From assembly GCF_032911225.1 (NCBI RefSeq), contig NZ_CP136600.1, positions 682,001 to 746,000 of the forward strand: DNA of 64,000 bases. Direction: 5' to 3'. Positions 46,796-64,000 of this stretch are shown piece after piece; the first letter of the stretch is position 1; each line of letters opens with the position of its first letter. The position numbers and the translations under genes were made by a program. The notes below the pieces were generated by a model. It was given only the letters and a program-made list of their open reading frames with translations. It was not told the origin of the DNA and ran no database searches. Source of the DNA: Thalassotalea fonticola (GTDB taxonomy: Bacteria; Pseudomonadota; Gammaproteobacteria; Enterobacterales; Alteromonadaceae).

Positions 46796-46824
46796 AAAAA
46801 AAGCTCTGCGATGCAGAGCTTTTT
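46796..46824 (-). terminator. Terminator of the fldA transcript
   Basis: The stem GCTCTGC/GCAGAGC is flanked by A and T runs. On the minus strand it is followed by seven T residues, about 26 bp after the fldA stop. The rest of the fur-fldA gap holds an imperfect CCAACC/GGTTGG pair (46745-46770) with no known role. Confidence 0.8.
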
Positions 46825-46849
46825 CGATTTTGAATTGAGACGCATTTTA

Positions 46850-47377: not shown

Positions 47378-47411
47378 GTTTGTAAACCCTTAAATTCTAT
47401 ATATTGACCAA

Positions 47412-47702: not shown

Positions 47703-47706
47703 AATT

Positions 47707-47928
47707 TTAGCCTATTCCGTTACTTTCCCAAATGATCTGGATCACACCTTTAGCGATAAATCCGGCACACCCTAAAAATAAAACCAAATATACAACCATT
47801 TTCCCTTTTTTCGGCACATCGTTTTTTTTCATTACATCATGAATTGACATACCGATGAAAAAGAATATGACGACAAAAAATAAGTTTAAACCAATTGTTT
47901 CTATAAGTTCTAAATGTTCGGAAAGCAT
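47707..47928 (-). CDS. DUF2788 small membrane protein
   Basis: 73 aa from the ATG at 47928; the open frame continues to 47982 but that part runs into the repeat element. Two TM helices (about 11-29 and 42-63) are separated by the basic loop DVMKKNDVPKKGK. It matches the DUF2788 pattern found beside ybfE/fldA in marine gammaproteobacteria. The function is unknown. It ends 4 bp before ybfE, so they share a transcript. Confidence 0.8.
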   Translation of the reverse strand: MLSEHLELIETIGLNLFFVVIFFFIGMSIHDVMKKNDVPKKGKMVVYLVLFLGCAGFIAKGVIQIIWESNGIG

Positions 47929-47950
47929 TCGATACTCGTTACTGTTCAAT

Positions 47951-48076
47951 ATGCAGGTTTCAGAGTGCTTGAGCGATGCCAATACAAGGCGCAGTTATGT
48001 AGTAATGGTTATCCCTTACAAATAGCTGCAACGAAGTAGTGGGATTGCTCAAGCACTTCTTCGATGGGTTTAAAAG
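47951..48076. repeat. Intergenic repeat element, copy 2 (MITE-like)
   Basis: The reverse-complement partner of 7507-7636, with inverted GCTTGAG/CTCAAGC segments near its ends. It lies in the 390-bp gap before DUF2788. The rest of that gap (48077-48318) has only an ACCCTAAAGGGT palindrome near 48230. Confidence 0.8.
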
Positions 48077-48318
48077 CAATTTATGCCGCGTTATTAAATT
48101 GAACAATGGAACAACCATTCTATAAATTCAATGCCTTGCCTAAATTGCTTTTAACTCCCACTGAAATCCCGTACTTTGAATAGTGACGGGTATAGACCCT
48201 AAAATTTAAGGGCGCACTATAGCATAAACCCTAAAGGGTATGCACCAAAAAAACATGGTTTTTAAGCTTGTTTTTAAACATCAATTTAAAAACAAACAAC
48301 TGATTGTATTTCAATATA

Positions 48319-49119
48319 TTAAGTGTTTAAAAAATCACTAACAATTTTATTGAACGCAACTGTTTTGTCTGCGTGTAGCCAATGACCAGCACCTTGAATG
48401 ATTTTTGCTTTTGCATTAGGAAATAATGCCGAGACTATTGATTGATGCTCACTGGTTATGTAATTTGAATTCGCTCCTTTAATGAATAAAGTAGGGCCAT
48501 TGAATTGTTGCTCTAAAGGAAAACCCTGAGCTATTGAATTGTAGTCATTGGCAATGTCAGTAATGTTGGCTCGCCAGGCGAACCCAGAATCAGTTTTTAC
48601 TAGATTTTTTAATAAAAACTGTCTTACTCCTGCTTCTTTTACATAACCGGATAATTGCTTGTCGGCATCTTGTCTATTGTTAATTTCGCTGACATTGATA
48701 CTTAATAAACCAGCAATAATTTCATTGTGATGAGGTGGGTATTCAACTGGAGCTATATCAGCCACTATTAACTTATTTATTCTTTCTGGTTTTGAAAGCG
48801 CACATTGCATGGCTATTTTACCACCCATAGAATGACCTAAAATATCACAAGATTTAATGTTCAAATAATCAAGCAATTCATATACGTCATTACTCATTTC
48901 ATCATAACTCATCGACTTATGATGAAATGAACTGCCATGATTACGTACATCAACACTAATCACTTTAAAACTATCCGCTAAAACCTTGGCAACCATATTT
49001 AAATTTTCAAGGCTACCAAACAGCCCATGAATTAACACTAATGGTTTACCTTCTCCTTTTATTACGTAGTTTAATAATGGTGATTGTGCAGGCATATTAG
49101 TTGTTTTATTTGTATTCAT
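48319..49119 (-). CDS. ybfF: Alpha/beta-hydrolase, acyl-CoA/ester hydrolase YbfF
   Basis: 266 aa. The oxyanion motif HGLFGSLENL, the nucleophile elbow GHSMGGKIAMQ and the late histidine in GAGHWLHAD form the alpha/beta-hydrolase triad. The order ybfF-seqA-pgm is a conserved gammaproteobacterial arrangement, with ybfF divergent from seqA. In E. coli YbfF has esterase activity towards palmitoyl-CoA and malonyl-CoA. Soluble; no signal peptide. Confidence 0.92.
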   Translation of the reverse strand: MNTNKTTNMPAQSPLLNYVIKGEGKPLVLIHGLFGSLENLNMVAKVLADSFKVISVDVRNHGSSFHHKSMSYDEMSNDVYELLDYLNIKSCDILGHSMGGKIAMQCALSKPERINKLIVADIAPVEYPPHHNEIIAGLLSINVSEINNRQDADKQLSGYVKEAGVRQFLLKNLVKTDSGFAWRANITDIANDYNSIAQGFPLEQQFNGPTLFIKGANSNYITSEHQSIVSALFPNAKAKIIQGAGHWLHADKTVAFNKIVSDFLNT

Positions 49120-49309
49120 AGCTGTATTTTTTCGATTTGTTACACTTATATTTACTATTTTACTGGGGTTACTTGCTGCTCTTCAATAGATTTGTTTATT
49201 AAAGTAAATATTTCTCAAAAAAATAATAAAACAATCATAAACAGGGTAGAGACTTATCAATAACATAAGTATACTTTAGCTTTCTAAAAATAAGATCATT
49301 GGAAAGTAA

Positions 49310-49921
49310 ATGAAAACCATCGATATTGATGACGAACTTTATCAATACATTGCCAGTAATACTAAATTTATTGGTGAGAGTGCCTCCGACATTTTAAGAC
49401 GTTTGTTAAGCTTTGATGAGCTGGTTGCTAATAGCAAATTAGCAATTAAAAAAGATGTTCAACCTGCTAACGATGTCAAAACAAAAAAATCAAAACCAGC
49501 AGTTGAAAATGTTAAATTAGCTGAAACAAAAACTAAATCAGTTGAAAAAACACCGGCGGCTAAACCTGAAAAAATTGCAGCAGGGCAAAACATTTTTGAC
49601 CTTATTAATAAAGAAGAGCTTGCTACTCAAAAAGGTGCAGTTGGACGATTTTTATTAATTTTAAGTAATATGCATCGTGTACATTCTCAGCAGTTTGATT
49701 CTGTTCTTGATATTCAAGGCCGAGACCGTTTGTATTTTGCTAACGCCGAACTAGATTTATTAGAAGCAGGCAGCAGCACTAAACCGAAGCAAATACCAAA
49801 TTCAGAGTTTTGGGTGATCACCAACTCAAATACCACTAGAAAGAAGCGTATGTTGACTGATGTCGCGAATGTATTAGGTTACAGTAAGACTGACGCTGAG
49901 AGAATTAGAGATTTACTCTAA
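49310..49921 (+). CDS. seqA: Negative modulator of replication initiation
   Basis: 203 aa. The N-terminal oligomerisation part MKTIDIDDELYQYIASNTKF and the C-terminal DNA-binding domain (about 95-203, with SNTTRKKRMLTDVANVLGYS) match SeqA. The linker between them (about 45-90) is long and rich in lysine and alanine. SeqA binds hemimethylated GATC pairs and sequesters oriC, so the host should have Dam methylation. Followed by pgm, as in other gammaproteobacteria. Confidence 0.95.
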   Translation: MKTIDIDDELYQYIASNTKFIGESASDILRRLLSFDELVANSKLAIKKDVQPANDVKTKKSKPAVENVKLAETKTKSVEKTPAAKPEKIAAGQNIFDLINKEELATQKGAVGRFLLILSNMHRVHSQQFDSVLDIQGRDRLYFANAELDLLEAGSSTKPKQIPNSEFWVITNSNTTRKKRMLTDVANVLGYSKTDAERIRDLL

Positions 49922-49983
49922 TTCTTTGTTTGCCAGCAACGCAAACTAGCTATTTTTCCAAGTAATTTATTGAAGGACTATTG

Positions 49984-51630
49984 ATGAGCATTCATCCTCA
50001 TGCCGGTAAACCCGCAAGACCAGAAGACCGAATTAACATTGGCCGATTAACCAGCGATTATTTTTTCCTAAAACCTGATGTAAGTGTTCCTGCACAGCAA
50101 GTCAGCTTTGGTACTTCAGGCCATCGAGGCTCAGCAGCTAAAACTAGTTTCAATGAAAATCATATATTAGCAATTACACAAGCCGTAGCTGAGTACAGAA
50201 CACAGCATCAGTTTCAGGGGCCATTATACTTAGGTAAAGATACTCACGCTTTATCAGAGCCTGCTTTTGCTAATGCAATATGTGTATTAGTCGCAAATGG
50301 CGTGCCTGTTGTTATCCAAGAAGATGAAGGCTTCACCCCAACGCCTGTGATCTCTAGATTGATTATTGCTCATAATGCTAATAACGATGGCCAAGCTGAT
50401 GGTTTAATTATTACACCATCACATAACCCTCCAAGCGATGGCGGCATTAAGTACAACCCTCCGCACGGTGGTCCGGCGGAAGGTGAAATAACTAAACTTA
50501 TTGAACAGCGTGCTAATGAAATATTAGCCAACGATTTAAGCGACGTTAAACAGGTTAGCTTATCAACTGCGATGAATTCTGAATTATTAACTAAATCAGA
50601 TTTTATCAACTTTTATGTCGATGAGCTTGCCAAAGTTATCGATATGAAGGCGATTAAAGATGCTGGCATTAAAATTGGCGTTGATCCATTAGGTGGCTCC
50701 GGTATTGATTACTGGCCAGTAATTGCGCAAAAATATGGTCTTAACATCGATGTTGTCAATCCTGTAGTAGATGCTAGTTTTGGATTTATGTCGCTTGATA
50801 AAGATGGAAAAATCCGTATGGATTGTTCTTCGCCATATGCTATGGCTGGTCTTATTGCGATGAAAGATGATTATGATGTGAGTGTTGGCAATGATCCTGA
50901 CTTTGACCGTCATGGCATAGTGACCAAGTCTGGTGGATTGATGAATCCAAATCATTACCTTGCGGTTGCTATCAACTATTTACTCACCCATCGTAATTGG
51001 CCTGAAACTGCCAAAATTGGTAAAACGCTAGTTTCAAGTTCAATAATTGACCGATTAGCCCAAAAACTTGATAGACCACTGTCAGAAACACCTGTTGGCT
51101 TTAAATGGTTTGTTGATGGATTGAAAGACGCTAGTTATGCGTTTGGCGGTGAAGAAAGTGCTGGGGCTTCATTTTTATCTTTAGATGGCAGCTGTTGGAC
51201 GACTGATAAAGACGGTTTTATTATGTGCTTACTGGCAGCAGAAATTATCGCGGTAACCGGTAAAGACCCATATCAATGGTATCAATTTTTAGCGCAAGAA
51301 TTAGGTGAACCGTATTATGGACGGGTGGAAGCAGTTGCTACAACCGAACAGAAAAAGGTTTTAACATCTTTATCTAAAGGTGATATTAGCCAAGATGCGT
51401 TAGCTGGTGAAGAAATAACTGCTGTACTTAGTCACGCACCTGGTAATGGAGCCGCAATTGGTGGGGTAAAAGTTGTTACTAATAATGGCTGGTTTGCTGC
51501 TCGTCCATCAGGCACCGAAGAAATCTATAAGATATATGCTGAGAGTTTTATCAGCAAAGATCACTTACAGACTATTATCAATGAAGCACAAGTATTAGTA
51601 AGTGCGGCGTTTAAGAATGCCGGGCTTTAA
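49984..51630 (+). CDS. pgm: Phosphoglucomutase (alpha-D-glucose phosphate-specific)
   Basis: 548 aa from the ATG at 49984 (GAAGGA upstream). The catalytic phosphoserine is Ser146 in TPSHNPPSDGGIKYN, the metal site is GNDPDFDRHG, and ARPSGTEEIYKIYAESF is the phosphate-binding end. It interconverts glucose-1-phosphate and glucose-6-phosphate for glycogen, nucleotide-sugar and galactose metabolism. It lies 62 bp after seqA and ends near a strong hairpin. Confidence 0.95.
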   Translation: MSIHPHAGKPARPEDRINIGRLTSDYFFLKPDVSVPAQQVSFGTSGHRGSAAKTSFNENHILAITQAVAEYRTQHQFQGPLYLGKDTHALSEPAFANAICVLVANGVPVVIQEDEGFTPTPVISRLIIAHNANNDGQADGLIITPSHNPPSDGGIKYNPPHGGPAEGEITKLIEQRANEILANDLSDVKQVSLSTAMNSELLTKSDFINFYVDELAKVIDMKAIKDAGIKIGVDPLGGSGIDYWPVIAQKYGLNIDVVNPVVDASFGFMSLDKDGKIRMDCSSPYAMAGLIAMKDDYDVSVGNDPDFDRHGIVTKSGGLMNPNHYLAVAINYLLTHRNWPETAKIGKTLVSSSIIDRLAQKLDRPLSETPVGFKWFVDGLKDASYAFGGEESAGASFLSLDGSCWTTDKDGFIMCLLAAEIIAVTGKDPYQWYQFLAQELGEPYYGRVEAVATTEQKKVLTSLSKGDISQDALAGEEITAVLSHAPGNGAAIGGVKVVTNNGWFAARPSGTEEIYKIYAESFISKDHLQTIINEAQVLVSAAFKNAGL

Positions 51631-51662
51631 GCCTCTTTTAACACCTTAACCAACTCTAGGAC

Positions 51663-51698
51663 ATTCTAAGTTAACTCATGAAAGAGTTAACTTAGAAT
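51663..51698 (+). other. Perfect 15-bp hairpin after pgm
   Basis: ATTCTAAGTTAACTC and its exact complement surround a 6-nt loop (ATGAAA). No T-run follows, so it is not a standard terminator; it may protect the mRNA end or bind a protein. Confidence 0.7.
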
Positions 51699-52173
51699 AA
51701 CCATAGTCCGTTCCTGCAAATCCTCGACAATTTTTCTTCGATAACGGTTTATACGATATTCTAGCAATATAGAGCCATATATTAATGCATAGCTCAATGC
51801 TCAACATTCATGTTGAAAGTTAAATTAAACTGTAAATTCTTCTATTTCAGCTGCATTAACGGTTTTACTATGTGAAATGTGTATTAGTTTAAATGACTTT
51901 CTTCTATATTTTAAGACGTTTTTATTGTAAAAAATATTAATTAATTATATGTAATAGTAAGTAAAAACAGTGAGTTATAAAATGTTATCTACTAAGAAAA
52001 CTGGTTTGGAGACTTTTAGGAGCTTTAGCATTAATACTTATGATTTTTTTTATTTCCAATACGCGATTATTGTCGTTCTTTAAGTTATAATTTTCGACCA
52101 AATTATGAATAATTATTCTCATGTTTATATTTAGTGTGGGGAATTGGAATAAATAAAAAAGGTAGTAAAAGCT
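51699..52173. other. AT-rich gap before the aminotransferase
   Basis: About 475 bases. An open frame of 30-40 codons around 51971-52090 could encode a hydrophobic peptide in one register, but it lacks a clear start. No riboswitch or TyrR-type box was recognised. Confidence 0.4.
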
Positions 52174-53361
52174 ATGTTTACACAATTAAAGCAATTACCC
52201 GCAGATCCTATATTAGGTTTGTCGGTAAAATTTAAAGCTGATAGTAATGCAAATAAAATTGATCTTGGCGCTGGTATTTATAAAGATGAAACTGGACATA
52301 CACCAGTTTTAGCCTGTGTAAAAGCTGCCGAACAATTTCGTGTTGATAAAGAACCTAGCAAGGCTTATTTAGGCTCAGCGGGCTCTGCAGTATTTAATGA
52401 AAAAATGACCGCGCTGATTTTAGGTGAGCACAAGGTTATTGCTGAAAACCGTATTCGTACTGTATCTACCCCAGGTGGCACGGGCGCGTTGCGCGTTGCC
52501 GGTGAATTTATTAAAACCTGTACCCCTGGCGCCACCATTTGGGTAAGTAACCCTACATGGGCGAATCATCAAGGTGTGTTCACTGCGGCAGGCTTGAATG
52601 TAAAAACGTACCCTTACTACGACTATGAAAATAACTGTTTAGACTTTGAAGGTATGCTTGCAGCGTTAAAGCAAGTACCTAAAGGCGATGCGGTGTTGCT
52701 GCATGCTTGTTGTCATAACCCAAGTGGTATGGATTTAAGTAAAGAGCAATGGCAGCAAGTTGCTGATGTTGCTAAACAAGTTGGTTTTATGCCGGTTGTT
52801 GATATGGCTTATCAAGGTTTTGGACAAGACTTAGATGCCGATGCTTATGGCCTTAGATTAATGGCAGATACTGTTGAACAAATGATTATCTGTAGTTCAT
52901 GTTCTAAAAACTTTGGTTTATACCGTGAACGTATTGGTGCATGCTCGGTTATAGGTCAAAGCGCTATTTCTGCCGATATTATTAGTTCAGTGCTATTGTC
53001 TGTGGTACGTGTTCTTTACTCTATGCCGCCGGCTCATGGTGCTGCTATTGTTGAAACCATTTTAAGCTCTACCGAATTAACCAACCAATGGCATGGTGAA
53101 TTAAAAGAAATGCGAGATCGTATAAACGGCATGCGTCAATTATTGGTTGATAAATTAGCGAGTAATGGCGTGACACGTGACTTTAGTTTTATCACCAGTC
53201 AAAATGGTATGTTCTCATTTTTAGGTATAGATAAAGCGCAAGTACAGCAGTTACAAGATAAATATAGCATTTATATTGTCGGCTCTAGCCGCATCAGTCT
53301 TGCCGGTATTTCATCTGATAATGTTGATTACTTAACGAAATCTATCGCGAAAATACTGTAG
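52174..53361 (+). CDS. Aromatic/aspartate aminotransferase (class I)
   Basis: 395 aa. The PLP lysine is Lys245 in SSCSKNFGLYRERIG, the motif shared by AspC and TyrB. HACCHNPSGMD carries the Asn that contacts PLP, and SRISLAGIS the substrate-carboxylate arginine. It transfers amino groups between aspartate or aromatic amino acids and 2-oxoglutarate. The gene has its own terminator at 53390 and stands close to the glutamate mutase operon on the same strand. This class is loose enough in substrate to deaminate 3-methylaspartate, but that is only a possibility. Confidence 0.92.
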   Translation: MFTQLKQLPADPILGLSVKFKADSNANKIDLGAGIYKDETGHTPVLACVKAAEQFRVDKEPSKAYLGSAGSAVFNEKMTALILGEHKVIAENRIRTVSTPGGTGALRVAGEFIKTCTPGATIWVSNPTWANHQGVFTAAGLNVKTYPYYDYENNCLDFEGMLAALKQVPKGDAVLLHACCHNPSGMDLSKEQWQQVADVAKQVGFMPVVDMAYQGFGQDLDADAYGLRLMADTVEQMIICSSCSKNFGLYRERIGACSVIGQSAISADIISSVLLSVVRVLYSMPPAHGAAIVETILSSTELTNQWHGELKEMRDRINGMRQLLVDKLASNGVTRDFSFITSQNGMFSFLGIDKAQVQQLQDKYSIYIVGSSRISLAGISSDNVDYLTKSIAKIL

Positions 53362-53389
53362 TGAGTTAAACCACAGTATTATTGAGAAG

Positions 53390-53420
53390 GCCCGCAGTTA
53401 TTGATAACTGCGGGCTTTTT
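53390..53420 (+). terminator. Terminator of the aminotransferase gene
   Basis: An 11-bp perfect GC-rich stem (GCCCGCAGTTA with TAACTGCGGGC) is followed by five T residues. Confidence 0.85.
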
Positions 53421-53424
53421 AAAT

Positions 53425-53505
53425 TCAGGGAAGAATTTACTTAGAATTACCATGGACGGTTTAAATTCTGTCATTTCAGGGAAGAAGGGATGCAAATCGC
53501 CATGG
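53425..53505. repeat. Two short direct repeats of an extragenic motif
   Basis: TTCAGGGAAGAA, then 13 or 14 varied bases, then CCATGGA, occurs twice, beginning near 53426 and 53478. It resembles short extragenic repeats of Alteromonadales; no function is known. Confidence 0.5.
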
Positions 53506-53542
53506 ATAACAGTGGTTACAAACTAACTCAATTTAAAGTGAA

Positions 53543-54022
53543 CTATACAATTTTGTTGCGAGTAACAATCACCCCATCTGTATCAGCGTAAAGATAATCA
53601 CCGTGATTAATCTCTATACCGCCAAATGAAAAACTAACCTCTCTTTCACCTGAGGTTACCGGAATATATTTGCGAGGGCAGGTACCAAGTGCGTATAAAG
53701 CAACAGGAATGTCGGTTATTTGGAATGTATCTCTGATATAGCCATTTATTAAAATACCGGCATAATTATTTTGATGAGCAAATTTCATCAGGTTTTCACC
53801 TACAACCGCATAGTAATCTTGGTCTACGTCAACGACAACAATTTTTCCGGTGCCATCTTCATCTCTGAGTAATTTAATTAAGTCTGAATTGTTTTTATCC
53901 AATTTAATGGTAACTATTTGCCCTTGGCATTTACTTGCGCCGCCATAATTATTATAGCCTGCGCCTAATACAGATACCTTATCGCTAAATTCATCACAGA
54001 TATCGGCGGTAAAAAATGTCAT
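53543..54022 (-). CDS. RraA-like protein (RraA / 4-hydroxy-4-methyl-2-oxoglutarate aldolase family)
   Basis: 159 aa, matching RraA length. The family core GYNNYGGASKCQGQIVTIK, then VVVDVDQDYYAVVGENLMKFA and GILINGYIRDT, is present. The Arg-Asp pair in GYIRD is the one used for metal and substrate by the aldolase/oxaloacetate-decarboxylase members, so the protein may be an enzyme rather than an RNase E inhibitor. It is divergent from the glutamate mutase operon with a 130-bp shared gap. Which of the two activities it has cannot be settled by sequence alone. Confidence 0.8.
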   Translation of the reverse strand: MTFFTADICDEFSDKVSVLGAGYNNYGGASKCQGQIVTIKLDKNNSDLIKLLRDEDGTGKIVVVDVDQDYYAVVGENLMKFAHQNNYAGILINGYIRDTFQITDIPVALYALGTCPRKYIPVTSGEREVSFSFGGIEINHGDYLYADTDGVIVTRNKIV

Positions 54023-54152
54023 AGATTATTCCTGTTATTTTATATAAGACAGTATTCTATCATCAAACAAGCCTTTATAGATAAACTTTGTTATCATATA
54101 TATTCTAAAAAAGTGAATAAGTATATACAACTTAAATTGGGCATAAAAATTT

Positions 54153-54578
54153 ATGAAAGTAGTAACAGGCGTAGTTGGTAACGACATTCATGTGGTCGCT
54201 AATCGATTAATTGAACTTTCCCTAAATGCGCGTGGATATGAAGTGTTTAACTTAGGAGTAAACACGTATTTAGAAGAGTTTTTTGATGCGGTGGTCGAAA
54301 CTGGCGCTGAAATTCTAATGATTTCATCTTTAAACGGTGAAGCTGAAGGCTGGAGCAGAGAAGTTAAGCTACTAAAAGCCAAATATAAACAACTGGATGA
54401 TCTGATCATGATGATTGGTGGCAATCTAGTTGTAGGCACAGGTAACGCCGAAGATATAGTGCCAAGATACAAAAATTACGGTTTTGATATCGTTTGTCAT
54501 CAGGTAGATTTAAATACCGGTTTAGACATGCTAGAAGACCTTATAAAAGACAGAGAGCTAGAAGTGAGTAATAAATAA
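54153..54578 (+). CDS. glmS: Glutamate (methylaspartate) mutase, sigma (B12-binding) subunit
   Basis: 141 aa. The Rossmann-like B12-binding fold of GlmS/MutS is clear: VVGNDIHVVANRLIELSL at the start, then ILMISSLNGEAEG, and MIGGNLVVGTG. Asp11 and His13 fit the D-x-H-x-x-G signature of base-off cobalamin binding, but the third position is Ala16 in place of Gly. The subunit holds adenosylcobalamin for the carbon-skeleton rearrangement of glutamate to (2S,3S)-3-methylaspartate. Its stop overlaps the start of the E subunit (TAATG). No cobalamin riboswitch is visible in the 130 bp before it. Confidence 0.88.
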   Translation: MKVVTGVVGNDIHVVANRLIELSLNARGYEVFNLGVNTYLEEFFDAVVETGAEILMISSLNGEAEGWSREVKLLKAKYKQLDDLIMMIGGNLVVGTGNAEDIVPRYKNYGFDIVCHQVDLNTGLDMLEDLIKDRELEVSNK

Positions 54579-55942
54579 TGAGTTTGCTGCAAGAAGAAAG
54601 AGAAATAATTCTTAGCAATGAGTATGTTGATACATTTGACTTTGCCGAAGTGGCTGAGTTTGTTAAAAATGCAAGCAAAGATCTGTTTATATCGCATCAC
54701 TTTAAAAACAAAAGTAAAATGCTTGTACAGCCCAGGGGCGGATTTCCTACCTACAAGAAACAATTTGCACTTTATGAATTTTTTGTCGATGCCAATGTTG
54801 ATGTGCTGCCTTTAACGATTGACTCAAATACAAGACTCAATGACTATGCCACTTCAAAGAAAATGCTTCGTCTGAGTGAAGAAAATGATGTTGATATGCT
54901 TAATGGTTATCCTTTGGTAAATCATGGCTATCGAACAACACGAAAAATGATCACTAATTTTAATAAACCGGTAAGTTTACGCCACGGTACACCTGATGCA
55001 AGACTCTTAATTGAAACAGCGATCGCTTCAGGAATTTTTGAAATTGAAGGCGGCCCGATCACTTACCTTTTGCCTTATTCAAAAAACTTTCCTTTAGATA
55101 AAGCATTTTTGTATTGGAAATATGTTGAGCGAGTGTGCGCTAATTACTCAAAATTAAATGAACCAATCAATAGAGAGTCTTTTGGGCCACTTACCGCAAC
55201 GTTAGTACCGCCAGCTATTACTATTGTCATACAGTTACTGGAAATGTTGCTTTCATTAGAAGAAGGAGTGAAGTCATTCTCTGTATCATTTGCTCAACAA
55301 GGCTCGATGAACCAAGATATTGTCACCGGTGCAGTGCTGAAAAAATTAGCAAAATACTACGCCGCGCAAATAAACTGTAGCGACGCCGCTATTCATTTGG
55401 TTTATCACCAATGGATGGGGGCATTTCCAATGAATAAGGACTATGCCGAACAACTAATTAATATGTCTACGGTAATCGCATCAATGGTGGGGGCTGATAA
55501 AATTATCACTAAAACCAGAGAAGAAGCCTCGGGTATTCCTACCAAAGAAGCTAATGCCAAAACTGTATCTAATACTCAATACACATTAGGCATTCTAAGC
55601 GGCTTGCCTAATGTTGTTGATGAAGAAGAAGAGGAAATGTTAACGCTGCAGGTTAAAGCTATTATGGAAGCTGTGTTTAATGATCCGGCTGATACCTTAT
55701 GGCGTAAAGTGTTTAACTCGATTAAAAACGGTATTATCGATGTGCCTTTTTCTCCGCATATTATTAATCACAATAATATGATCACCATCAGAGATGCGAA
55801 GAAAAACATCAGAATTATAAAAAGAGGCAATGTGCCCATTCCAGACAGATGTTACGCTTATGATAAAGCGCAATGTGATTTGACCAAAGATACCACCAGT
55901 ATCGTCAATGATATTATTCACGATATAGGAATTATGCAATGA
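54578..55942 (+). CDS. glmE: Glutamate (methylaspartate) mutase, epsilon (catalytic) subunit
   Basis: 454 aa, slightly shorter than the clostridial protein (483). The residues known to hold glutamate in Clostridium cochlearium GlmE (Arg66, Arg100, Arg149, Glu171, Tyr177, Tyr181, Lys326, Glu330) have counterparts here: Arg53, Arg86, Arg135, Glu157, Tyr163, Tyr167, Lys312 and Glu316. All but the first lie at a constant offset of 14. The motifs are QPRGGFPTY, LRHGTPDAR and IEGGPITYLLPYSK. The enzyme should therefore still use glutamate. Starts inside the stop of glmS and ends overlapping the start of glmL by 4 bp. Confidence 0.92.
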   Translation: MSLLQEEREIILSNEYVDTFDFAEVAEFVKNASKDLFISHHFKNKSKMLVQPRGGFPTYKKQFALYEFFVDANVDVLPLTIDSNTRLNDYATSKKMLRLSEENDVDMLNGYPLVNHGYRTTRKMITNFNKPVSLRHGTPDARLLIETAIASGIFEIEGGPITYLLPYSKNFPLDKAFLYWKYVERVCANYSKLNEPINRESFGPLTATLVPPAITIVIQLLEMLLSLEEGVKSFSVSFAQQGSMNQDIVTGAVLKKLAKYYAAQINCSDAAIHLVYHQWMGAFPMNKDYAEQLINMSTVIASMVGADKIITKTREEASGIPTKEANAKTVSNTQYTLGILSGLPNVVDEEEEEMLTLQVKAIMEAVFNDPADTLWRKVFNSIKNGIIDVPFSPHIINHNNMITIRDAKKNIRIIKRGNVPIPDRCYAYDKAQCDLTKDTTSIVNDIIHDIGIMQ

Positions 55943-57177
55943 TCTGTGAAATAAACAATGCCGAAAACAAAGACAGCAAAGAAAACAATGATAAATTGTT
56001 GATTGATGTTGGTAGTACGTACTTTAAGATCAGTACTCCGGGCAATATAGAACAACATTTTAGAGATTTTAACAAAGATATCTTAGATGATTTAATGCAT
56101 AAATGCGGTAAGACCATCGGTGGTTTTGCTAAAGATGATGTCCATATTTATTCTTCTGCGAATGGCGGGTTGACTACGCTAATTATCGGTATCACCAATA
56201 CCTTTTCATTAAAGTATGCTACCAATATCGCTTTTAACTCGGGCATAAATATTATTGATACTGTGCTCTATCAAAATATCGAAGACTATTCATTGCCAAG
56301 TGATCTTATCGATGTCGTTATTATTGTTGGCGGCATCAATTCAAATGGCAATATTTTTTCTGACAGCCTATACAACTATTTAGCTCAGTTACGCTATTCC
56401 AATATTGTTTTTGTTGGTAATGAGCTTGATGCTCCGCTAATAAAAGAGCGCATTGAAAATGTTGAAATATTACCAAATATAATTGATGACAGGCTGCATA
56501 TTGTTGAAGAGCACTTACGAGAATATTTAACCAACCTTTATCAAAAAGATATTGAAGGCAAAGAAGATATTAAGCATTTGTACGATATTACTTCAAATCA
56601 AATATTTCCAACCCCTTATATAGTGAACAAAACGTTACCGTTAATTGATGCAAAATTTTCGGTGGTAAACCCATTTATATTGCTTGATATTGGTGGGGCA
56701 ACAACTGACATTCACTTTTCAAAAGATTTAGTTGACGAAAATATAGTGACAGAAAATGAATATGACCGACTGGTATTTAAAAAGCTCGGCGTTTATAAGT
56801 CTAAACAGTCATTAATTTTTGCCGCGCAAAATAATGAATTCGTCTATGAGTTGTTGATGCACTTGAAAGTAACAGAAAATATTTTTGCAGAGCAAACTGA
56901 AAAATCTACTAAAATATTGATGCAACTGGCTATTTTTTTGGTTTTATGTAAAATTTCTCATTATAAAAAAGCCTATATCAATTTAAAGCTACTTTCGATT
57001 AACTCTATTGTTTTAACCGGTGGTATTACCAAGGTATTAACGGGCGAAGAAATCGAAGATATTATTTCGTTTTTCTATAAAAAAATCCTTAACTCAGAGC
57101 ACAACCCGGTGACTGTCCTTGATAGTAATTATGATATTTGGACGCTTGCAGAAAAAGGAAAAGAATTATGTCAATAA
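55939..57177 (+). CDS. glmL: MutL/GlmL-type reactivase of glutamate mutase
   Basis: 412 aa. The actin/Hsp70-like ATPase motifs LLIDVGSTYFKIS (20-32) and LLDIGGATTDIHFS (about 250-263) are those of MutL/GlmL, encoded between or beside mutS and mutE in clostridia. The family is thought to exchange damaged cobalamin for adenosylcobalamin with ATP. At about 410 residues it is a little shorter than clostridial MutL (about 460). Its start overlaps the stop of glmE and its end overlaps the start of the ligase, so all four genes are translationally coupled. Confidence 0.88.
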   Translation: MICEINNAENKDSKENNDKLLIDVGSTYFKISTPGNIEQHFRDFNKDILDDLMHKCGKTIGGFAKDDVHIYSSANGGLTTLIIGITNTFSLKYATNIAFNSGINIIDTVLYQNIEDYSLPSDLIDVVIIVGGINSNGNIFSDSLYNYLAQLRYSNIVFVGNELDAPLIKERIENVEILPNIIDDRLHIVEEHLREYLTNLYQKDIEGKEDIKHLYDITSNQIFPTPYIVNKTLPLIDAKFSVVNPFILLDIGGATTDIHFSKDLVDENIVTENEYDRLVFKKLGVYKSKQSLIFAAQNNEFVYELLMHLKVTENIFAEQTEKSTKILMQLAIFLVLCKISHYKKAYINLKLLSINSIVLTGGITKVLTGEEIEDIISFFYKKILNSEHNPVTVLDSNYDIWTLAEKGKELCQ

Positions 57178-58739
57178 ACTGTATAAGAACACTTCTTGAA
57201 AGTGCAGTGCAGGCGAATAGCGACAAGACTGCCATTGTAAATAACGAAACAAGTATCACCTACACTGAGTTGTTTGCCAAAGTAAACCAAGTAGCTTTTT
57301 ATTTAAAAGAGTTAGACTTGCCCAAAGATTCCCGAATTGGTATTTATTCCAACAAAGGCATAGAGCAAGTTATTGCTGTGTTAGCTATTTTGTCTACCGA
57401 CTACATATTAGTGCCACTCACTACGTTATTAAAGCCTGAGCAAGTTGAGTACATTATTAACGATTGTGATATCAAGTGTATTATCACTGATAAGCTAAAG
57501 CTTGAGAGTATTGAAGAAATTAACTTTGATGGCCAAATTATTTCTTATGAAACGGCGAGCAAAGGTATAGCGTCATTTGAAGAGATTTTTAAATACTACA
57601 ATAAACCTTATGAGTGCGACATCAGCGGTCACAGTAATGCAGTAATTACCTATTCGTTTGGCGTGTCAGGCACACCAAAAGGCATTGTTATTTCGCATCG
57701 AAATCTTATTGATTCGGCTCGTGTCGTGTCTCAGTATTTAAAACTAGCGCACGATGACGTAATTTCAGGCTTACTTATTTTTAATCTTGATTATGGCTTG
57801 AATCAAATATTTTGTACGTTATACAAAAAAGCTACATTGGCCTTACATAGGTTCATTTTGCCAGAAGATTTTTTCAACCACATTATTAACGATAAAGTGA
57901 CTGTATTACCATTAATGCCGGTCAATATTTCTCAGATGTTTGATGATGGTACTCATAGAATTCCCAGTAGCGAGCTTTTTTCTGCGGTTAAAACCATTAC
58001 CTCTTCAGGCGGTAATGTAACGGCTAAAATGGTCAAAGACTGTAAAAAAACCTTCCAACAGGCTGACTTTTACTCAATGCACGGATTAACTGAAGCATTT
58101 CGCTCAACCTATCTTGCCCCATCACAAGTACAAATTAGGCCAGATTCTATTGGTAAAGCCATACCCGATGTTGAGCTGTATGTCATTAACGAAAACGGTA
58201 AGGAATGTGAGGTTCGAGAAGTCGGTGAATTGATCCACCGAGGTGGCTATATTTATCGGGGGTTCTGGAATGCGCCAGAGCAAAATGAGCAACGATTTAA
58301 GTCAGTACAAATCTTAAAAGATGTGATTAATCTTGAAGGTCAGCTAACCGACGAGATTGTTGTGGCTACAGGCGATTATGTTTATAAAGATGAAGAAGGG
58401 TACTTTTACTTTGTTTCAAGACAGGATGACATGATCAAAACCAGAGGCTTTAGGGTTTCACCTTTTGAAATTGAATCTGTGGTCGCTAAAAATATTCCAC
58501 AAATAGATAAATGTGCTGTTTTTGGTATAGACAACGAACTTATCGAAGAAGAAATTGTAATGGTTTACTCTGCCGGTAATGAGATCACTGAAAAAGAGAT
58601 TTTGTTCGAGCTTAAAAAACACTTAGCCTCTTACATGATCCCAAGTCGAGTTGTTTATAAAAAGTCACTGCCTTTAGTACAAAGTGATAAAAATCAAGTG
58701 AATAAAGATTTACTAAAACGAGAATTGTCTGGAGGGTAG
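57168..58739 (+). CDS. Adenylate-forming acid ligase beside glutamate mutase
   Basis: 523 aa from the ATG at 57168 (AAGGA upstream; the frame is open back to 57138). The ANL superfamily is shown by the ATP motif SFGVSGTPKGIVISH (variant of TSGTTGxPKG), YSMHGLTEAF, and TGDYVYKDEEGYFYFVSRQDDMIK with RGFRVSPFEIE. The C-terminal lysine motif LVQSDKNQVNK is present in a modified form. The enzyme should adenylate a carboxylic acid and pass it to CoA or a carrier protein. Coupling to glutamate mutase suggests that the acid is 3-methylaspartate or a product of it, as with VinN in vicenistatin biosynthesis, but no carrier protein gene is in the window. Confidence 0.85.
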   Translation: MSINCIRTLLESAVQANSDKTAIVNNETSITYTELFAKVNQVAFYLKELDLPKDSRIGIYSNKGIEQVIAVLAILSTDYILVPLTTLLKPEQVEYIINDCDIKCIITDKLKLESIEEINFDGQIISYETASKGIASFEEIFKYYNKPYECDISGHSNAVITYSFGVSGTPKGIVISHRNLIDSARVVSQYLKLAHDDVISGLLIFNLDYGLNQIFCTLYKKATLALHRFILPEDFFNHIINDKVTVLPLMPVNISQMFDDGTHRIPSSELFSAVKTITSSGGNVTAKMVKDCKKTFQQADFYSMHGLTEAFRSTYLAPSQVQIRPDSIGKAIPDVELYVINENGKECEVREVGELIHRGGYIYRGFWNAPEQNEQRFKSVQILKDVINLEGQLTDEIVVATGDYVYKDEEGYFYFVSRQDDMIKTRGFRVSPFEIESVVAKNIPQIDKCAVFGIDNELIEEEIVMVYSAGNEITEKEILFELKKHLASYMIPSRVVYKKSLPLVQSDKNQVNKDLLKRELSGG

Positions 58740-58757
58740 TTTTAACTCTCATAATCA

Positions 58758-58786
58758 CCCCAACAAAAAGTTGGGGTTTATTTTTT
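58758..58786 (+). terminator. Terminator of the glutamate mutase operon
   Basis: CCCCAAC/GTTGGGG with a five-A loop, followed by TTTATTTTTT. Confidence 0.85.
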
Positions 58787-58909
58787 AGAATGAATATGCA
58801 AAACACTAGCTTGCAGCAATTGTATTAAAAATAATATTATCGTTCTGATTTTCTATTTGTTTTGATTTAACCTAGAATATAAGCACCTTTCATTAATCGA
58901 TGATTCTGT

Positions 58910-59971
58910 GTGTCTGATATTCAACAACAATTACTAACCTCTGCTGACTTTCTGGCGATTACTCGCCAATTTCCCGATGCTTTACCTGAAACCTTTACCG
59001 TACATTTAACTCACCCAACTTCCGGTTTACAAACCTTGATGAGTGTTTTAGATACCGGTGTGATAAGTTTTGAACCGGTCGATCAATTTACCGATAGTGA
59101 CATTGTATTATCCAGTGCTGTGCATGGTAATGAAACGGCGCCAATTGAAATTTGCCAACAATTAATCGCGCAAATAATTAAAGGCGAATTAGCCTTAAAG
59201 CAACGAGTTTTATTTTTATTTGGTAATCCCGCCTCTATTAATATTGGCGAGCGCTTTGTTGAAGAAAATTTAAACCGACTTTTTTCAGGCGCACATAGTG
59301 ATGGTGAAGGCTTATGCAATAAAGAACGTCATCGAGCACTAGCCCTTGAAAACTATGTTCGCGACTTTTTTGATCAGGGCGCGACAATAGCAGGGGAAAG
59401 AACTCGTTTTCATTATGATTTGCATACTGCCATACGTGGCTCAAAAAATGACAAGTTTGCTGTCTATCCGTTCTTACATGGTAAACCTAGAAATAAGCAA
59501 CAGCTGCAATTTTTGTTAAGTTGTGGCATTAACACCATTCTACTTTCTCATAGCCCAACAACAACGTTTAGTTACTTCTCTGCAAATGAATTTAATGCTC
59601 ATGCTTTTACTGTTGAATTAGGCAAGGTGATGCCGTTTGGTGAAAATAACATGGCTAATTTCAGTAACTGTAAAAATGCATTAACTTTATTATTAACTGC
59701 ACAAGACTTAGGCCTGGCAGAATTTGATGAAAGTGATTTTAATATTTATGAAATATTTAAAACAATAAATCGAGAAACTGAAGACTTTTATTTAACCTTT
59801 GCAGAGGACGCAGAGAACTTTACCGACTATCCTTTAGATCATGTATTAGCCGTAGATGGTGCTATTGAACACAAAGTAACAGTACCGGGTGAAGCGATTA
59901 TATTTCCTAATGCGCACGTTGCCATTGGGCAACGTGCGTTACTTACGGTGATACCGTGCAATATTGATTAG
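58910..59971 (+). CDS. astE: Succinylglutamate desuccinylase
   Basis: 353 aa from a GTG; the ribosome site is weak. The zinc site begins with HGNETAP (His72, Glu75), the metal-binding His in HYDLHTAIRG follows, and the catalytic glutamate is in FTVELGKVMPFG. The last step of arginine succinyltransferase catabolism: N-succinylglutamate to succinate and glutamate. The other ast genes are not in the window, so it stands apart from its pathway. Its product, glutamate, is the substrate of the mutase encoded just before it, which may be coincidence. Confidence 0.9.
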   Translation: MSDIQQQLLTSADFLAITRQFPDALPETFTVHLTHPTSGLQTLMSVLDTGVISFEPVDQFTDSDIVLSSAVHGNETAPIEICQQLIAQIIKGELALKQRVLFLFGNPASINIGERFVEENLNRLFSGAHSDGEGLCNKERHRALALENYVRDFFDQGATIAGERTRFHYDLHTAIRGSKNDKFAVYPFLHGKPRNKQQLQFLLSCGINTILLSHSPTTTFSYFSANEFNAHAFTVELGKVMPFGENNMANFSNCKNALTLLLTAQDLGLAEFDESDFNIYEIFKTINRETEDFYLTFAEDAENFTDYPLDHVLAVDGAIEHKVTVPGEAIIFPNAHVAIGQRALLTVIPCNID

Positions 59972-60155
59972 AGTGGCGGATTGGCTAATTTGATATTAAA
60001 AAGTGTAAACCTAAATTGCCACTAAAATTAACTTTTTACTGGTTAATTAATCGAAAAAATTGCATGTAAATGTTCCAAAATGTAAAGTTCTCGCGATATA
60101 TACCCAATGTCTAAAGGGCGGGTATAAGTACTTTTATAAAATAATTTTTTCATAT

Positions 60156-60201
60156 TTTAGAGCCAAATATAACAAACGTAAAAATTAGCGTTGGCTCTAA
60201 A
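60156..60201 (+). promoter_or_regulatory. Inverted repeat in the bkd leader region
   Basis: TTTAGAGCCAA (60156-60166) and TTGGCTCTAAA (60191-60201) form a perfect 11-bp inverted repeat with a 24-nt spacer, about 50 bp before bkdA1. It could be an operator or an RNA hairpin. Confidence 0.55.
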
Positions 60202-60253
60202 TTTCTTTAGGTTATTACAACAAAGCATGTAAATGCTACTAATCGAGAAGCTT

Positions 60254-61435
60254 ATGGACACTGTAAAATATCAAGAAGGTCGCGTGGTTCACCAGGTTGA
60301 AGCCATTGACGGTCATTCCGTAGAAATTCCAATCCTAAAAATATTAAAACAAGACGGTAGTGTGTATGAAAATGCAGACATGCCGGCAATTGAGCAAGAA
60401 CTTGCCACAAAAATTTATAAAACATTAGCATTTCATCGGGTATTAGACGAACGAATGACTGCATCACAGCGTCAAGGTCGCTTAAGCTTTTATATGTCAG
60501 CATTAGGCGAAGAAGCTGCCAGTGTTGGCAGTGCTGCTGGGCTAGATGATAACGATATGATCATGGCCCAATACCGTGAACAAGGTGCATTAATATTCAG
60601 GGGCTTTAGTCTTGAAAATTTCATGAATCAAATGTTCTCCAATGAAAAAGATCTAGGTAAAGGTCGCCAAATGCCAATTCATTATGGTTCGCAAGAGTTG
60701 AACTATATGACTGTTTCTTCACCGCTGGGAACACAAATTCCACAGGCTGCAGGTTATGCTTATGGACAAAAGCTTAAAGGCAACAAGCAGTGTACGATTT
60801 GCTATTTTGGTGAAGGTGCAGCCTCTGAAGGTGATTTTCATGCCGGTTTGAATATGGCTGCGGTACAAAGATCGCCGGTTATATTCTTTTGTCGCAATAA
60901 TGGTTACGCAATTTCTACACCTTCATCTGAGCAGTTTGCTGGTAACGGTATCGCCTCTCGTGGTGTTGGTTACGGCATTCGTACAATCAGAGTAGACGGT
61001 AACGATTTGTTAGCGGTATTGAAAGCTACGCAAGATGCTCGTCATTACGCAATTGAAAATAACAAACCAGTGATCATTGAAGCCATGTCGTATCGTTTAG
61101 GTGCGCATTCTACCTCGGATGATCCTAGTGGTTACAGAACCCGTGAAGAAGAAGCTAAATATGCTGATCACGATCCGATTTTACGAATGAAAAATTGGAT
61201 GCTTGCCAATAAATGGTGGGATGAGACACAAGAAGAAGAATTATTTGAAACGTACAGAAAAGACGTTTTAGCTGCGGTTAAAGTTGCCGAGGTTATTGAA
61301 AAGCCGGCGATTGAAGAGTTAATTACTGATGTTTACGATAAAGCACCAGAGCACTTAGAACAACAATTAGCTGATTTAAAAGAACACATTAAAAAGTATC
61401 CGGATGCTTACCCAGTTACTGCAGGGAGATTATAA
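60254..61435 (+). CDS. bkdA1: Branched-chain 2-oxoacid dehydrogenase E1 alpha
   Basis: 393 aa from the ATG at 60254 (frame open from 60233). The thiamine-diphosphate motif [19 protein letters not shown] to RNNGYAIST and the phosphorylation-loop-like [16 protein letters not shown] are typical of E1 alpha of branched-chain complexes. With the beta subunit it decarboxylates 2-oxo acids from valine, leucine and isoleucine and passes the acyl group to the E2 lipoyl arm. First gene of the bkd operon, 2 bp before bkdA2. Confidence 0.92.
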
Positions 61436-61437
61436 TT

Positions 61438-62415
61438 ATGGCACAAATGAATTTATTACAAGCTATTAATAATGCTTTAGAAATCGCCATGACTGAAAAT
61501 GAGTCTGCAGTGTGTTTTGGTGAAGACGTAGGCCATTTTGGTGGTGTATTTCGTGCGACCAGTAACTTACAAGAAAAATTTGGTAAAGACCGTTGTTTTA
61601 ACACGCCTTTAACTGAACAGGGCATTATGGGCTTTGCCAATGGTTTAGCAGCGCAGGGCAGTGTTCCTATTGCTGAAATTCAGTTTGCTGATTATATTTT
61701 TCCAGCGTTCGATCAAATTGTGAATGAGTCTGCTAAATTCAGATACCGCTCTGGTAATGAATTTAATGTTGGAAACCTAACAATCCGTACACCTTACGGT
61801 GGCGGTATTGCTGGCGGTCTATATCACTCGCAATCACCTGAAGCTTACTTTGCCCACACACCGGGTTTAAAAATTGTGGTTCCTCGCAACCCTTATCAAG
61901 CTAAAGGTTTATTACTTGCTGCGATTCGTGACAAAAACCCGATCATATTTTTTGAACCTAAAAAGCTTTACCGGGCGTCAGTAGGCGAAGTGCCTGAAGA
62001 AGATTATCAGTTACCACTGGGTAAAGCCGAAGTTGTAAAAAATGGCACTGATATCACGTTATTAGGCTGGGGTGCGCAGATGGAAACCATCGAAAAATCA
62101 GCTGAAATGGCTGAAAAGCAAGGCGTGTCTTGTGAAATTATTGATTTACGTTCTATATTGCCTTGGGATGTAGACACGGTTGCTGCATCGGTGCAAAAGA
62201 CCGGCAGATTACTGATCAACCATGAAGCCCCTTTAACTGGTGGTTTTGCTGGTGAAATAGCGGCCACCATTCAAGATAAGTGTTTCTTACATTTAGAGTC
62301 ACCGATTTCACGAGTATGTGGTTTAGACACACCGTTCCCGCTAGCGCATGAAAAAGAATACATGCCAGATGAATTGAAAACCTTTGAAGCCATTATGGCC
62401 TCGGTAAATTACTAG
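61438..62415 (+). CDS. bkdA2: Branched-chain 2-oxoacid dehydrogenase E1 beta
   Basis: 325 aa. The segments [36 protein letters not shown] and the pyrimidine-domain [19 protein letters not shown] are typical of E1 beta. [21 protein letters not shown] forms the C-terminal interface. It pairs with BkdA1 to form the alpha2beta2 E1 enzyme. Confidence 0.93.
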
Positions 62416-62425
62416 GATTTATGAA

Positions 62426-64000
62426 ATGAGTATTGATTTTATTTTACCTGACATTGGCGAAGGCATTGTTGAATGTGAACTGGTTGAATGGCTAGTAAAC
62501 GAAGGCGATCATATTGAAGAAGATCAGCCTGTAGCAGATGTAATGACAGATAAAGCATTAGTGCAAATACCTGCAATGTACTCTGGTGTTGTTGATAAAT
62601 TGTATTATGCAAAAGGTGATATAGCGAAAGTACACTCACCTTTATTTGCTATGACGCCTGTTGGCGCTGAAACTGAAGCAGCAGCCCCGGCAGCAGTAGC
62701 AGCACCGGTAGAGACTAGCCCAGCGAAAGCGGTTGCTGGCAGCAGTGCTATTGAAGATTTTATATTGCCTGATATCGGTGAAGGTATCGTTGAATGTGAA
62801 GTTGTTGATTGGTTAGTCGCTGAAGGCGATATGATTGAAGAAGACCAAGCCGTTGTTGATGTAATGACAGACAAAGCACTTGTGCAAATACCATCTAAAT
62901 ACGCTGGTAAAGTAGTTAAGTTGCATTATGCCAAAGGTGAAATAGCCAAAGTTCACCAACCTCTATTCGCTATTGAAGTGGAAGGTTTACAAGCCCAAGG
63001 CTCAGCACCTGTTGCTTCTGCAGAAACAACAGCTCAAACAGCTCCAACAGCAAGTGTGCAAGCCACGCCACCTGCCGTTGCAAAAACAGCTGTTGGGGTT
63101 AAATCTACAACAGGCAAAGCTATAGCAAGTCCTGCTGTGCGCCGTGTAGCCAGAGAATTAAGTGTAAACATTCATGACGTACCAGGGACTGGACCTAAAG
63201 GACGTGTGTATAAAGAAGACGTGGTTAACTTTACCCAAGCCCCACAAGCTTCATCTGTACAAGCTTCTGCTAGTGTAAATACAGAAGTTGCTGGCGGAAC
63301 CAGAGTTGAACCTATTAGGGGCATTAAGGCCGCTATGGCTAAAGCTATGGTTGCTTCTGTATCAACAATTCCTCACTTTACTTATTGTGAAGAAATTGAC
63401 ATGACTAAGCTGATTGCCTTGCGCTCTGAGTTAAAAGAAGTGTATGCCAAGCAAGACATTAAATTAACCATGATGCCATTTTTCATGAAGTCTATGTCGT
63501 TAGCAATTAAACAATTTCCATTGATGAACACTAAAGTGAATGAAGATTGTTCTGAGCTTACTTATTTTGATGATCACAATATTGGTATGGCGGTAGATTC
63601 AAAAGTTGGTTTACTAGTACCTAATGTGAAGAATGTACAAAGCTTATCAATTGTTGATGTGGCCAAAGAAATTACCCGCTTAACCAATGATGCTCGCGAT
63701 GGCAGAGTTGCCAGCAATGACCTAAAAGGTGGCACTATCAGTATTTCTAATATTGGTGCACTAGGTGGTACGGTCGCAACACCTATCATCAATAAGCCAG
63801 AAGTTGCCATTGTTGCTTTAGGTAAACTACAAACCTTACCGCGCTTTAATGATAAAGGTGAAGTTGAAGTTCGTTCAATCATGCAAGTTAGTTGGTCTGG
63901 CGATCATCGCGTAATTGATGGCGGCACCATTGCTCGTTTTAGTAACTTATGGAAGTCTTTCTTAGAAGATCCTGCCACTATGTTAATGCATATGTCTTAA
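62426..64000 (+). CDS. bkdB: Branched-chain 2-oxoacid dehydrogenase E2 (lipoamide acyltransferase), two lipoyl domains
   Basis: 524 aa, with the stop codon exactly at the end of the window. Two lipoyl domains carry the lipoyl lysines Lys43 and Lys150, each in DVMTDKALVQIP. A peripheral-subunit-binding domain (about 230-262, with SPAVRRVARELSV) and the acyltransferase domain follow. The catalytic His-Asp is in SWSGDHRVIDGG. It moves the branched acyl group to CoA. Most BCKDH E2 proteins have one lipoyl domain; two nearly identical ones is the odd point. An E3 gene was not in the window. Confidence 0.93.
   Translation: MSIDFILPDIGEGIVECELVEWLVNEGDHIEEDQPVADVMTDKALVQIPAMYSGVVDKLYYAKGDIAKVHSPLFAMTPVGAETEAAAPAAVAAPVETSPAKAVAGSSAIEDFILPDIGEGIVECEVVDWLVAEGDMIEEDQAVVDVMTDKALVQIPSKYAGKVVKLHYAKGEIAKVHQPLFAIEVEGLQAQGSAPVASAETTAQTAPTASVQATPPAVAKTAVGVKSTTGKAIASPAVRRVARELSVNIHDVPGTGPKGRVYKEDVVNFTQAPQASSVQASASVNTEVAGGTRVEPIRGIKAAMAKAMVASVSTIPHFTYCEEIDMTKLIALRSELKEVYAKQDIKLTMMPFFMKSMSLAIKQFPLMNTKVNEDCSELTYFDDHNIGMAVDSKVGLLVPNVKNVQSLSIVDVAKEITRLTNDARDGRVASNDLKGGTISISNIGALGGTVATPIINKPEVAIVALGKLQTLPRFNDKGEVEVRSIMQVSWSGDHRVIDGGTIARFSNLWKSFLEDPATMLMHMS

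Follow-up and report, generated by a model that had tools for sequence, protein, structure and literature searches.

What is a glutamate mutase for, in a bacterium whose genome holds no methylaspartate ammonia-lyase match over the family cut-off? This question is raised by a stretch of the Thalassotalea fonticola genome (NZ_CP136600.1, positions 682,001-746,000 of the forward strand), hereafter the window, which comprises 64,000 nt and whose positions are used as coordinates below. An earlier note on this DNA had described four overlapping genes, encoding the two mutase subunits (glmS and glmE), an accessory protein (glmL), and a ligase-like protein of the ANL fold (LIG). The overlaps, of 1, 4, and 10 bases, are borne out, with the ATG at 57168 as the start of LIG, which gives the conserved MSIN start. 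The extent given was nevertheless too small, as the unit consists of six genes: an AspC-type aminotransferase (AT) gene and an RraA-like gene at 52174-54022, followed by glmS, glmE, glmL, and LIG (Table 1). We tentatively propose, with somewhat less than even confidence in this reading of the sequences, that these six genes could form a laterally transferred island for a glutamate-mutase route to 2-oxobutyrate.

We analyzed gene linkage in the best 80 of 216 loci found, fetched from other genomes and encoding a GlmE 81-99% identical to that of the window. By record titles, these loci belong to 54 gammaproteobacteria, 22 Campylobacterota, 3 betaproteobacteria, and one metagenome-assembled genome (MAG) named Rhodothermales, and a locus enters a count only where its sequence extends far enough on the side in question. 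The glmS gene lies directly 5' of glmE in all 80 loci (79, plus one with a 16-base overlap), glmL follows glmE in 75 of 75 testable loci, and LIG follows the mutase genes in 73 of 73, a recurrence of the four-gene order far above chance. Of the 76 loci testable for an RraA-like gene, 69 have one no more than 10 kb from glmE; in 61 it is divergent and at most 1.2 kb away, and the other eight have it on the same strand at a greater upstream distance, one of these genes being truncated at the end of the locus. The AT gene is present in 35 of 49 testable gammaproteobacterial loci, within 4 kb in 31 and at a greater upstream distance in four, again with one truncated at the end of the locus. Beyond the six genes, the largest flanking family obtained by mapping open reading frames, most of these families being unannotated, occurs in 11 of 89 loci and is confined to one lineage. 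The remark of the earlier note that no polyketide or carrier-protein gene lies nearby holds for recurrent neighbors. The RraA-like and AT genes had escaped it, and they point to a less complicated fate of 3-methylaspartate.

A deeper campylobacterotal clade, with GlmE 71-75% identical, accounts for 29 of 57 campylobacterotal hits, and 19 of 20 regions fetched come from it. These 19 regions contain glmS in all cases, glmE in 18 (no frame was called in L176), glmL in 18 (not in L168), LIG in 18 (not in L177), and the RraA-like gene in 16 (not in L163, L168, or L178, the last being a short contig). The RraA-like gene is divergent from the other four in most of these loci, some contigs being cut, and LIG lies several kilobases away in L168. 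That these five genes also lie together in the deeper clade supports the proposed route. In L163, an IS110-family transposase gene (10864-11823) occupies the place of the RraA-like gene, and one deeper-clade locus has yidC, mnmE, and other housekeeping genes as neighbors.

The first step of this route would be the adenosylcobalamin-dependent conversion of glutamate into 3-methylaspartate by GlmS and GlmE, which GlmL would keep active. GlmE matches PF06368 with 381 bits and does not reach the TIGR01503 cut-off (365.6 versus 390.1 bits). In our alignment, with positions counted by hand, residues R66, R100, R149, E171, Y177, and Y181 of the clostridial enzyme correspond to R53, R86, R135, E157, Y163, and Y167 of GlmE, in agreement with the earlier claim that the glutamate-binding residues are kept. 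The roles of the arginine claw (R66, R100, R149), E171, and Y177 in substrate binding are described in PMC9545868. GlmS exceeds the NF002612 cut-off (142.7 versus 110 bits) and stays below that of TIGR01501 (84 versus 135.8 bits). Where the B12-binding motif DxHxxG is expected, it reads D-I-H-V-V-A, the Asp and His being kept and the final Gly replaced by Ala; this variant, which the earlier note did not mention, is found in 74/74 main rows and 19/19 deeper-clade rows. GlmL exceeds the cut-off of Pfam MutL (PF13941; 83.7 versus 27 bits) and falls far below that of the GlmL equivalog NF040745 (68.5 versus 475 bits). Taken together, the conserved GlmE residues support the expectation that the operon should make 3-methylaspartate, and GlmS and GlmE are very probably active as a glutamate mutase.

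In an ordinary methylaspartate pathway, either fermentation or the methylaspartate cycle, an ammonia-lyase and a mesaconase encoded elsewhere in the genome would take over from here. The absence of the ammonia-lyase claimed for the operon extends genome-wide, since the best match in T. fonticola is partial and scores 23.9 bits, under the 27-bit cut-off; the search covered the ammonia-lyase and not mesaconase. The ammonia-lyase result that the earlier note named as a refutation therefore did not occur in T. fonticola. Among 55 genomes carrying the island, 44, including that of T. fonticola, have no match over the cut-off, and ten more have only partial matches of 28-41 bits. One genome, that of Pseudomaricurvus alkylphenolicus, does encode a full-length match (364 bits), on a contig other than that of the island. 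We therefore consider the ordinary pathway very improbable.

In the route proposed here, 3-methylaspartate would instead be transaminated to 3-methyloxaloacetate by an AspC-type enzyme; many gammaproteobacteria have a dedicated one, and elsewhere a housekeeping enzyme presumably serves. The RraA-like protein is homologous to class II aldolases and oxaloacetate decarboxylases that depend on a metal; it would then convert 3-methyloxaloacetate into 2-oxobutyrate and so pull forward the mutase reaction, whose equilibrium is unfavorable. The net effect would be to bring the carbon of 2-oxoglutarate into 2-oxobutyrate, an isoleucine precursor, without threonine. A linked gene corresponds to each of these two steps.

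Class II aldolases and oxaloacetate decarboxylases of the RraA fold share an acid-x20-Arg-Asp spacing, and the RraA-like protein shows this motif as E76, R97, and D98. Across the rows with letters at these positions, Glu or Asp is present in 70/70 and Arg-Asp in 69/69, and both in 16/16 rows of the deeper clade. At the motif positions, the RraA that scores best in this genome has Ser and Arg-Glu. As stated in PMC5065237, most RraA/HMG-aldolase homologues have the metal-binding and catalysis motifs and are likely class II pyruvate aldolases, which decarboxylate oxaloacetate. The protein exceeds the NF006875 (RraA) cut-off by only 3 bits (139 versus 136) and lies below that of TIGR02998 (99.2 versus 241.25 bits). 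A function as RNase E regulator is disfavored because of the linkage to the mutase and because the genome contains two other RraA-family genes. The RraA-like protein is likely to act on a 2-oxo-diacid.

The best solved relatives of the AT are aspartate aminotransferases, and the T. fonticola genome encodes two ATs of this type, which are 70% identical. We built a tree of 64 rows, comprising 34 island copies, 3 repeats of these from the family search, and 27 Colwelliaceae core copies. A branch with support 100/99 separates all island copies from the Colwelliaceae core ATs, and the clade that they form spans several orders by record titles. In the 28 loci with all six genes, pairwise AT identities follow those of the remaining island genes, with correlations of 0.54-0.70.

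A route of this kind was already proposed in 1962. The pathway of Abramsky (1962) would reportedly use the same starting steps as proposed here. PMC7476758, citing Abramsky 1962, counts the glutamate mutase pathway as one of nine or more routes to 2-ketobutyrate, and according to PMC4682846 an epimerase would be required if isoleucine were formed from glutamate by way of (S)-citramalate. The route proposed here would require none. Our literature searches listed no description of this gene set, nor any gene set assigned to the glutamate-mutase route. That the main flux goes to 2-oxobutyrate is a possibility that the gene content suggests and to which we give a little less than an even chance. 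The island is in any case new as a combination of known parts, and one of its proteins, LIG, is truly unusual.

Several observations weigh against this route. None of the 19 campylobacterotal, two betaproteobacterial, and one Rhodothermales loci that are testable has the AT, and 14 of the 49 gammaproteobacterial ones lack it too. A change in AT specificity was rejected, since the comparison with the core AT revealed only five minor substitutions. Seven loci lack the RraA-like gene; one of them, L014, has 1.3 kb of upstream sequence, and the other six are campylobacterotal loci with 10 kb upstream, which count against the route. A third RraA-family gene (G000:C1:664525-664998), distinct in sequence and about 17 kb before the window, has the acid-x20-Arg-Asp motif too; the motif alone therefore does not set the island protein apart, whereas its linkage does. 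Activity on a 3-methyl substrate would be an extrapolation, and the route gives no part to LIG, the partner with the strictest linkage. Isoleucine genes are not among the fixed neighbors, since recurrence across lineages is limited to the six genes. Finally, the threonine-deaminase regulatory domain (Thr_dehydrat_C) is over its cut-off in 28 of 43 distinct island-bearing genomes, including that of T. fonticola (32 of 47 in the raw count, from which four genomes entered twice, as judged by equal coordinates, were removed). Since most genomes examined thus have threonine deaminase, 2-oxobutyrate is already available there and an isoleucine role would be redundant. The 15 genomes without the domain are campylobacterotal ones, the Rhodothermales MAG, and one betaproteobacterial genome.

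A need for isoleucine as the driver of the island was rejected on the basis of this domain count. In Colwellia maritima (G197, L005), the two threonine-deaminase regulatory domains lie in a short reading frame that contains an in-frame TGA (C1:91356-91895), which is either a broken ilvA or a sequencing error.

The best NCBIfam match of LIG is TIGR03098, under the cut-off (426.6 versus 592.35 bits). In the earlier note, LIG was held to fit only an antibiotic-type activation of 3-methylaspartate, as in vicenistatin formation, and its pocket does resemble that of VinN. Residues D230, F231, S299, and R331 of VinN correspond to D208, Y209, S280, and R312 of LIG (positions counted by hand), the alignment being gapless around both loops, and K330 is replaced by F311, so that four of five pocket positions match. 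D208, Y209, and S280 are kept in 76/76 main and 17/17 deeper-clade rows and R312 in 75/75 and 17/17, the latter residue not being specific to VinN because TIGR03098 relatives share it. The probable ligand of LIG is 3-methylaspartate or another acidic amino acid resembling it. The thiolation machinery is conserved as well: the thiolation lysine K434 of GrsA corresponds to K424 (74/74 and 17/17 rows), R439 to R429 (76/76 and 17/17), and E327 to E309 (75/75 and 17/17).

The adenylation residues present another picture. The ATP loop of LIG reads YSFG, whereas the nine other ANL proteins examined from the same genome and two TIGR03098 relatives read T-(S/G)-G, and the P-loop serine/glycine position is a phenylalanine (F164) in 94/94 rows. 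The A10 lysine, K517 in GrsA, serves adenylation according to PMC11253843 and PMC10062202; it is present as G-K in the same 11 controls. In LIG, a lysine is found at position 508 in 57/75 main and 0/16 deeper-clade rows, at 509 in 0/75 and 7/16, and at 510 in 24/75 and 8/16. Some lysine thus occurs at 508-510 in 60/75 and 14/16 rows and at none of these positions in 17/91, and the deeper-clade rows L167 and L169 read a normal-looking GKIDK. In addition, K513 is kept in 70/74 and 15/16 rows. An AlphaFold model of LIG (mean pLDDT 67.6) was too poor to help and was left unused. From these alignments, loss of adenylation by LIG appears about equally probable as its retention, and it is likewise a balanced call whether selection on the first half-reaction was relaxed or lost with the substrate site and the machinery of the second half retained. 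Alternatively, the differences may reflect alignment shifts, or a re-shaped ATP loop that still works.

If the latter applies, LIG would be a working adenylating ligase, with a shifted lysine, that activates the β-carboxylate of 3-methylaspartate as VinN does and passes it to CoA, AcpP, or an amine to form a new small molecule, the AT and the RraA-like protein supplying or recycling intermediates. The invariant pocket residues, the linkage in all 73 testable loci, and the lysines at 508-510 and 513 are consistent with such an enzyme. The invariant phenylalanine of the P-loop, F311 in place of VinN K330, and the lack of a single conserved A10 position argue against it, as do the carrier proteins. 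The T. fonticola genome contains a single PF00550 match, a 93-residue frame taken as the fatty-acid carrier; exactly one match is also the rule in six others of the 30 island-bearing genomes searched (7/30 in all), the remaining 23 having 2-11. No carrier protein recurs in the operon flanks, although carriers that PF00550 misses could exist, and the islands have no acyltransferase or polyketide gene in common, since no further flanking gene recurs across lineages. The altered ATP loop, the unfixed A10 lysine, and the single carrier domain make a vicenistatin-like route unlikely and weaken the claim of the earlier note; a ligase active in this broader sense is in our view rather unlikely. A 91-residue gene after LIG in Arcobacteraceae, considered as a carrier candidate, was rejected as cytochrome-c-like by eye (CxxCH).

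Conversely, LIG might be a non-enzymatic partner of the mutase, either a sensor of 3-methylaspartate or a nucleotide or a chaperone of cobalamin or its adenosyl form, in a set dedicated to the regulated catabolism of glutamate to 2-oxobutyrate or propionyl-CoA rather than to isoleucine synthesis. This would fit a protein that keeps its pocket and its A5, A7, and A8 residues while the ATP loop and A10 vary, and that occurs in the S-E-L-LIG order in nearly all loci. The binding it presupposes is predicted from sequence comparison, however, and L177 has kept the RraA-like gene, glmS, glmE, and glmL with no LIG after glmL. The catabolic part would accord with a cluster downstream in the window (60233-64000) that encodes the E1 alpha, E1 beta, and E2 proteins of a 2-oxoacid dehydrogenase complex and could take 2-oxobutyrate; a branched-chain type is possible, because both E1 proteins are under the pyruvate dehydrogenase cut-offs. 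These genes do not recur beside other islands, and we consider this explanation distinctly unlikely. Returning to the route to 2-oxobutyrate, LIG would remain a near-obligate partner of the mutase that may act as a sensor, as a chaperone, or in thioester chemistry. The fullest version of our proposal is unlikely as a whole: an ANL protein without its adenylation half, retaining the pocket and the thiolation machinery (A8 lysine and A8 Arg-A5 Glu pair), that together with the mutase, an RraA-type decarboxylase, and a dedicated transaminase would represent the first gene set for the 1962 route, moved between phyla.

The distribution of the island is patchy. An island-type GlmE is present in 7 of 196 Colwelliaceae, with one more having a distant GlmE, and in the genus of the window the island is also found in Thalassotalea sp. 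ND16A (L003). Among sampled gammaproteobacteria, 5 of 369 have GlmE, including T. fonticola, one of the five being distant. The set is nevertheless common, as 57 of 397 sampled Campylobacterota have the mutase. GlmE matches at E ≤ 0.001 amount to 2782 protein clusters, of which the best 120 are all at least 91% identical; relatives at greater distance may be among the remainder. A search of plasmid records for GlmE or LIG at a minimum identity of 60% gave no match. In the window, genes for a SeqA-like protein (by eye) and phosphoglucomutase (49310-51630) precede the island, which therefore appears inserted into an ordinary chromosomal stretch. From this pattern we infer lateral transfer of the island between bacterial phyla, although strong constraint could also cause the high identity between them. 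If the proposal is true, an isoleucine-precursor route put forward six decades ago would gain its genes, and glutamate mutase would have an aerobic use distinct from fermentation, the haloarchaeal cycle, and antibiotic formation. The island would also offer a ligase-fold protein whose two half-reactions evolution may have separated.

The features of the unit are listed in Table 1. The promoters of glmS and of the RraA-like gene should lie in the divergent region between them, where a promoter scan gave no promoter-like sites above shuffles. Terminator-like sites in the hairpin scan barely exceed shuffles (6 versus a mean of 4.6, standard deviation 2.1), and Rfam gave no riboswitch or other RNA match in window positions 46000-62000. 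The next gene past the terminator-like hairpin (58910-59971) encodes AstE, a succinylglutamate desuccinylase, which releases glutamate.

Table 1 Features of the glutamate mutase island in the window
Feature	Coordinates	Strand	Evidence
AspC-type aminotransferase (AT), island-specific copy; proposed 3-methylaspartate transaminase	52174..53361	+	PF00155, NF006719
RraA-like protein; proposed 3-methyloxaloacetate decarboxylase	53543..54022	-	PF03737 113.8 bits, linkage, motif E76/R97/D98
Divergent intergenic region, 130 bases, between RraA-like gene and glmS	54023..54152	.	Coordinates; promoter location inferred
glmS, B12-binding subunit of glutamate mutase	54153..54578	+	NF002612 142.7 bits; aligns with solved GlmS
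glmE, catalytic subunit of glutamate mutase	54578..55942	+	PF06368 381 bits; substrate-binding residues kept
glmL, divergent MutL/GlmL accessory (reactivation) protein	55939..57177	+	PF13941 83.7 bits
LIG, ANL-fold protein akin to TIGR03098 and VinN	57168..58739	+	PF00501 and PF13193, motif counts, VinN alignment
Terminator-like hairpin 3' of LIG	58757..58777	+	8-pair stem, then T-rich tail

Compared with known systems, the island shares with clostridial GlmES and GlmL (C. cochlearium, PDB 1ccw/1cb7/6h9e) both subunits, the substrate-binding residues, and a MutL-type accessory protein. It differs by the DIHVVA motif of GlmS, a very divergent GlmL, the extra partners LIG, RraA-like protein, and AT, and the lack of an ammonia-lyase match over the cut-off in T. 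fonticola. VinN of the vicenistatin starter pathway (PDB 3wv4/3wv5/3wvn) is likewise an ANL protein, and LIG has equivalents of its D230, aromatic residue 231, S299, and R331. LIG departs from it by the Phe in place of K330, the altered ATP loop, and the unfixed A10 lysine, and no carrier, pyridoxal phosphate (PLP) decarboxylase, or polyketide gene recurs as its neighbor.

The TIGR03098 family (acyl-CoA ligase, exosortase A system-associated) contains relatives 33-34% identical to LIG with the same YGLTEAFRSTYL block; the two relatives inspected retain YTSGSTGKPKG and PNGK, unlike LIG. The TIGR03098 ligases of Aureimonas (L134) and Sinorhizobium (L135) lie near a carrier-protein gene and glycosyltransferases, and that of Aureimonas also near a PLP decarboxylase; no exosortase is annotated in the stretches shown, and they are possibly involved in aminoacyl decoration of a polysaccharide. 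As for the HMG/CHA aldolase and oxaloacetate decarboxylase of the RraA fold, it shares the acid-x20-Arg-Asp motif with the RraA-like protein, whose R97 and D98 correspond by residue offset to R123 and D124 of the P. putida enzyme, the second metal residue of the latter, Glu-199, lying outside the comparison. The RraA-like protein differs in having 159 residues, and its closest solved relatives are proteins named RraA/MenG, with the aldolase 3noj matching only at an E-value of 1.5e-4.

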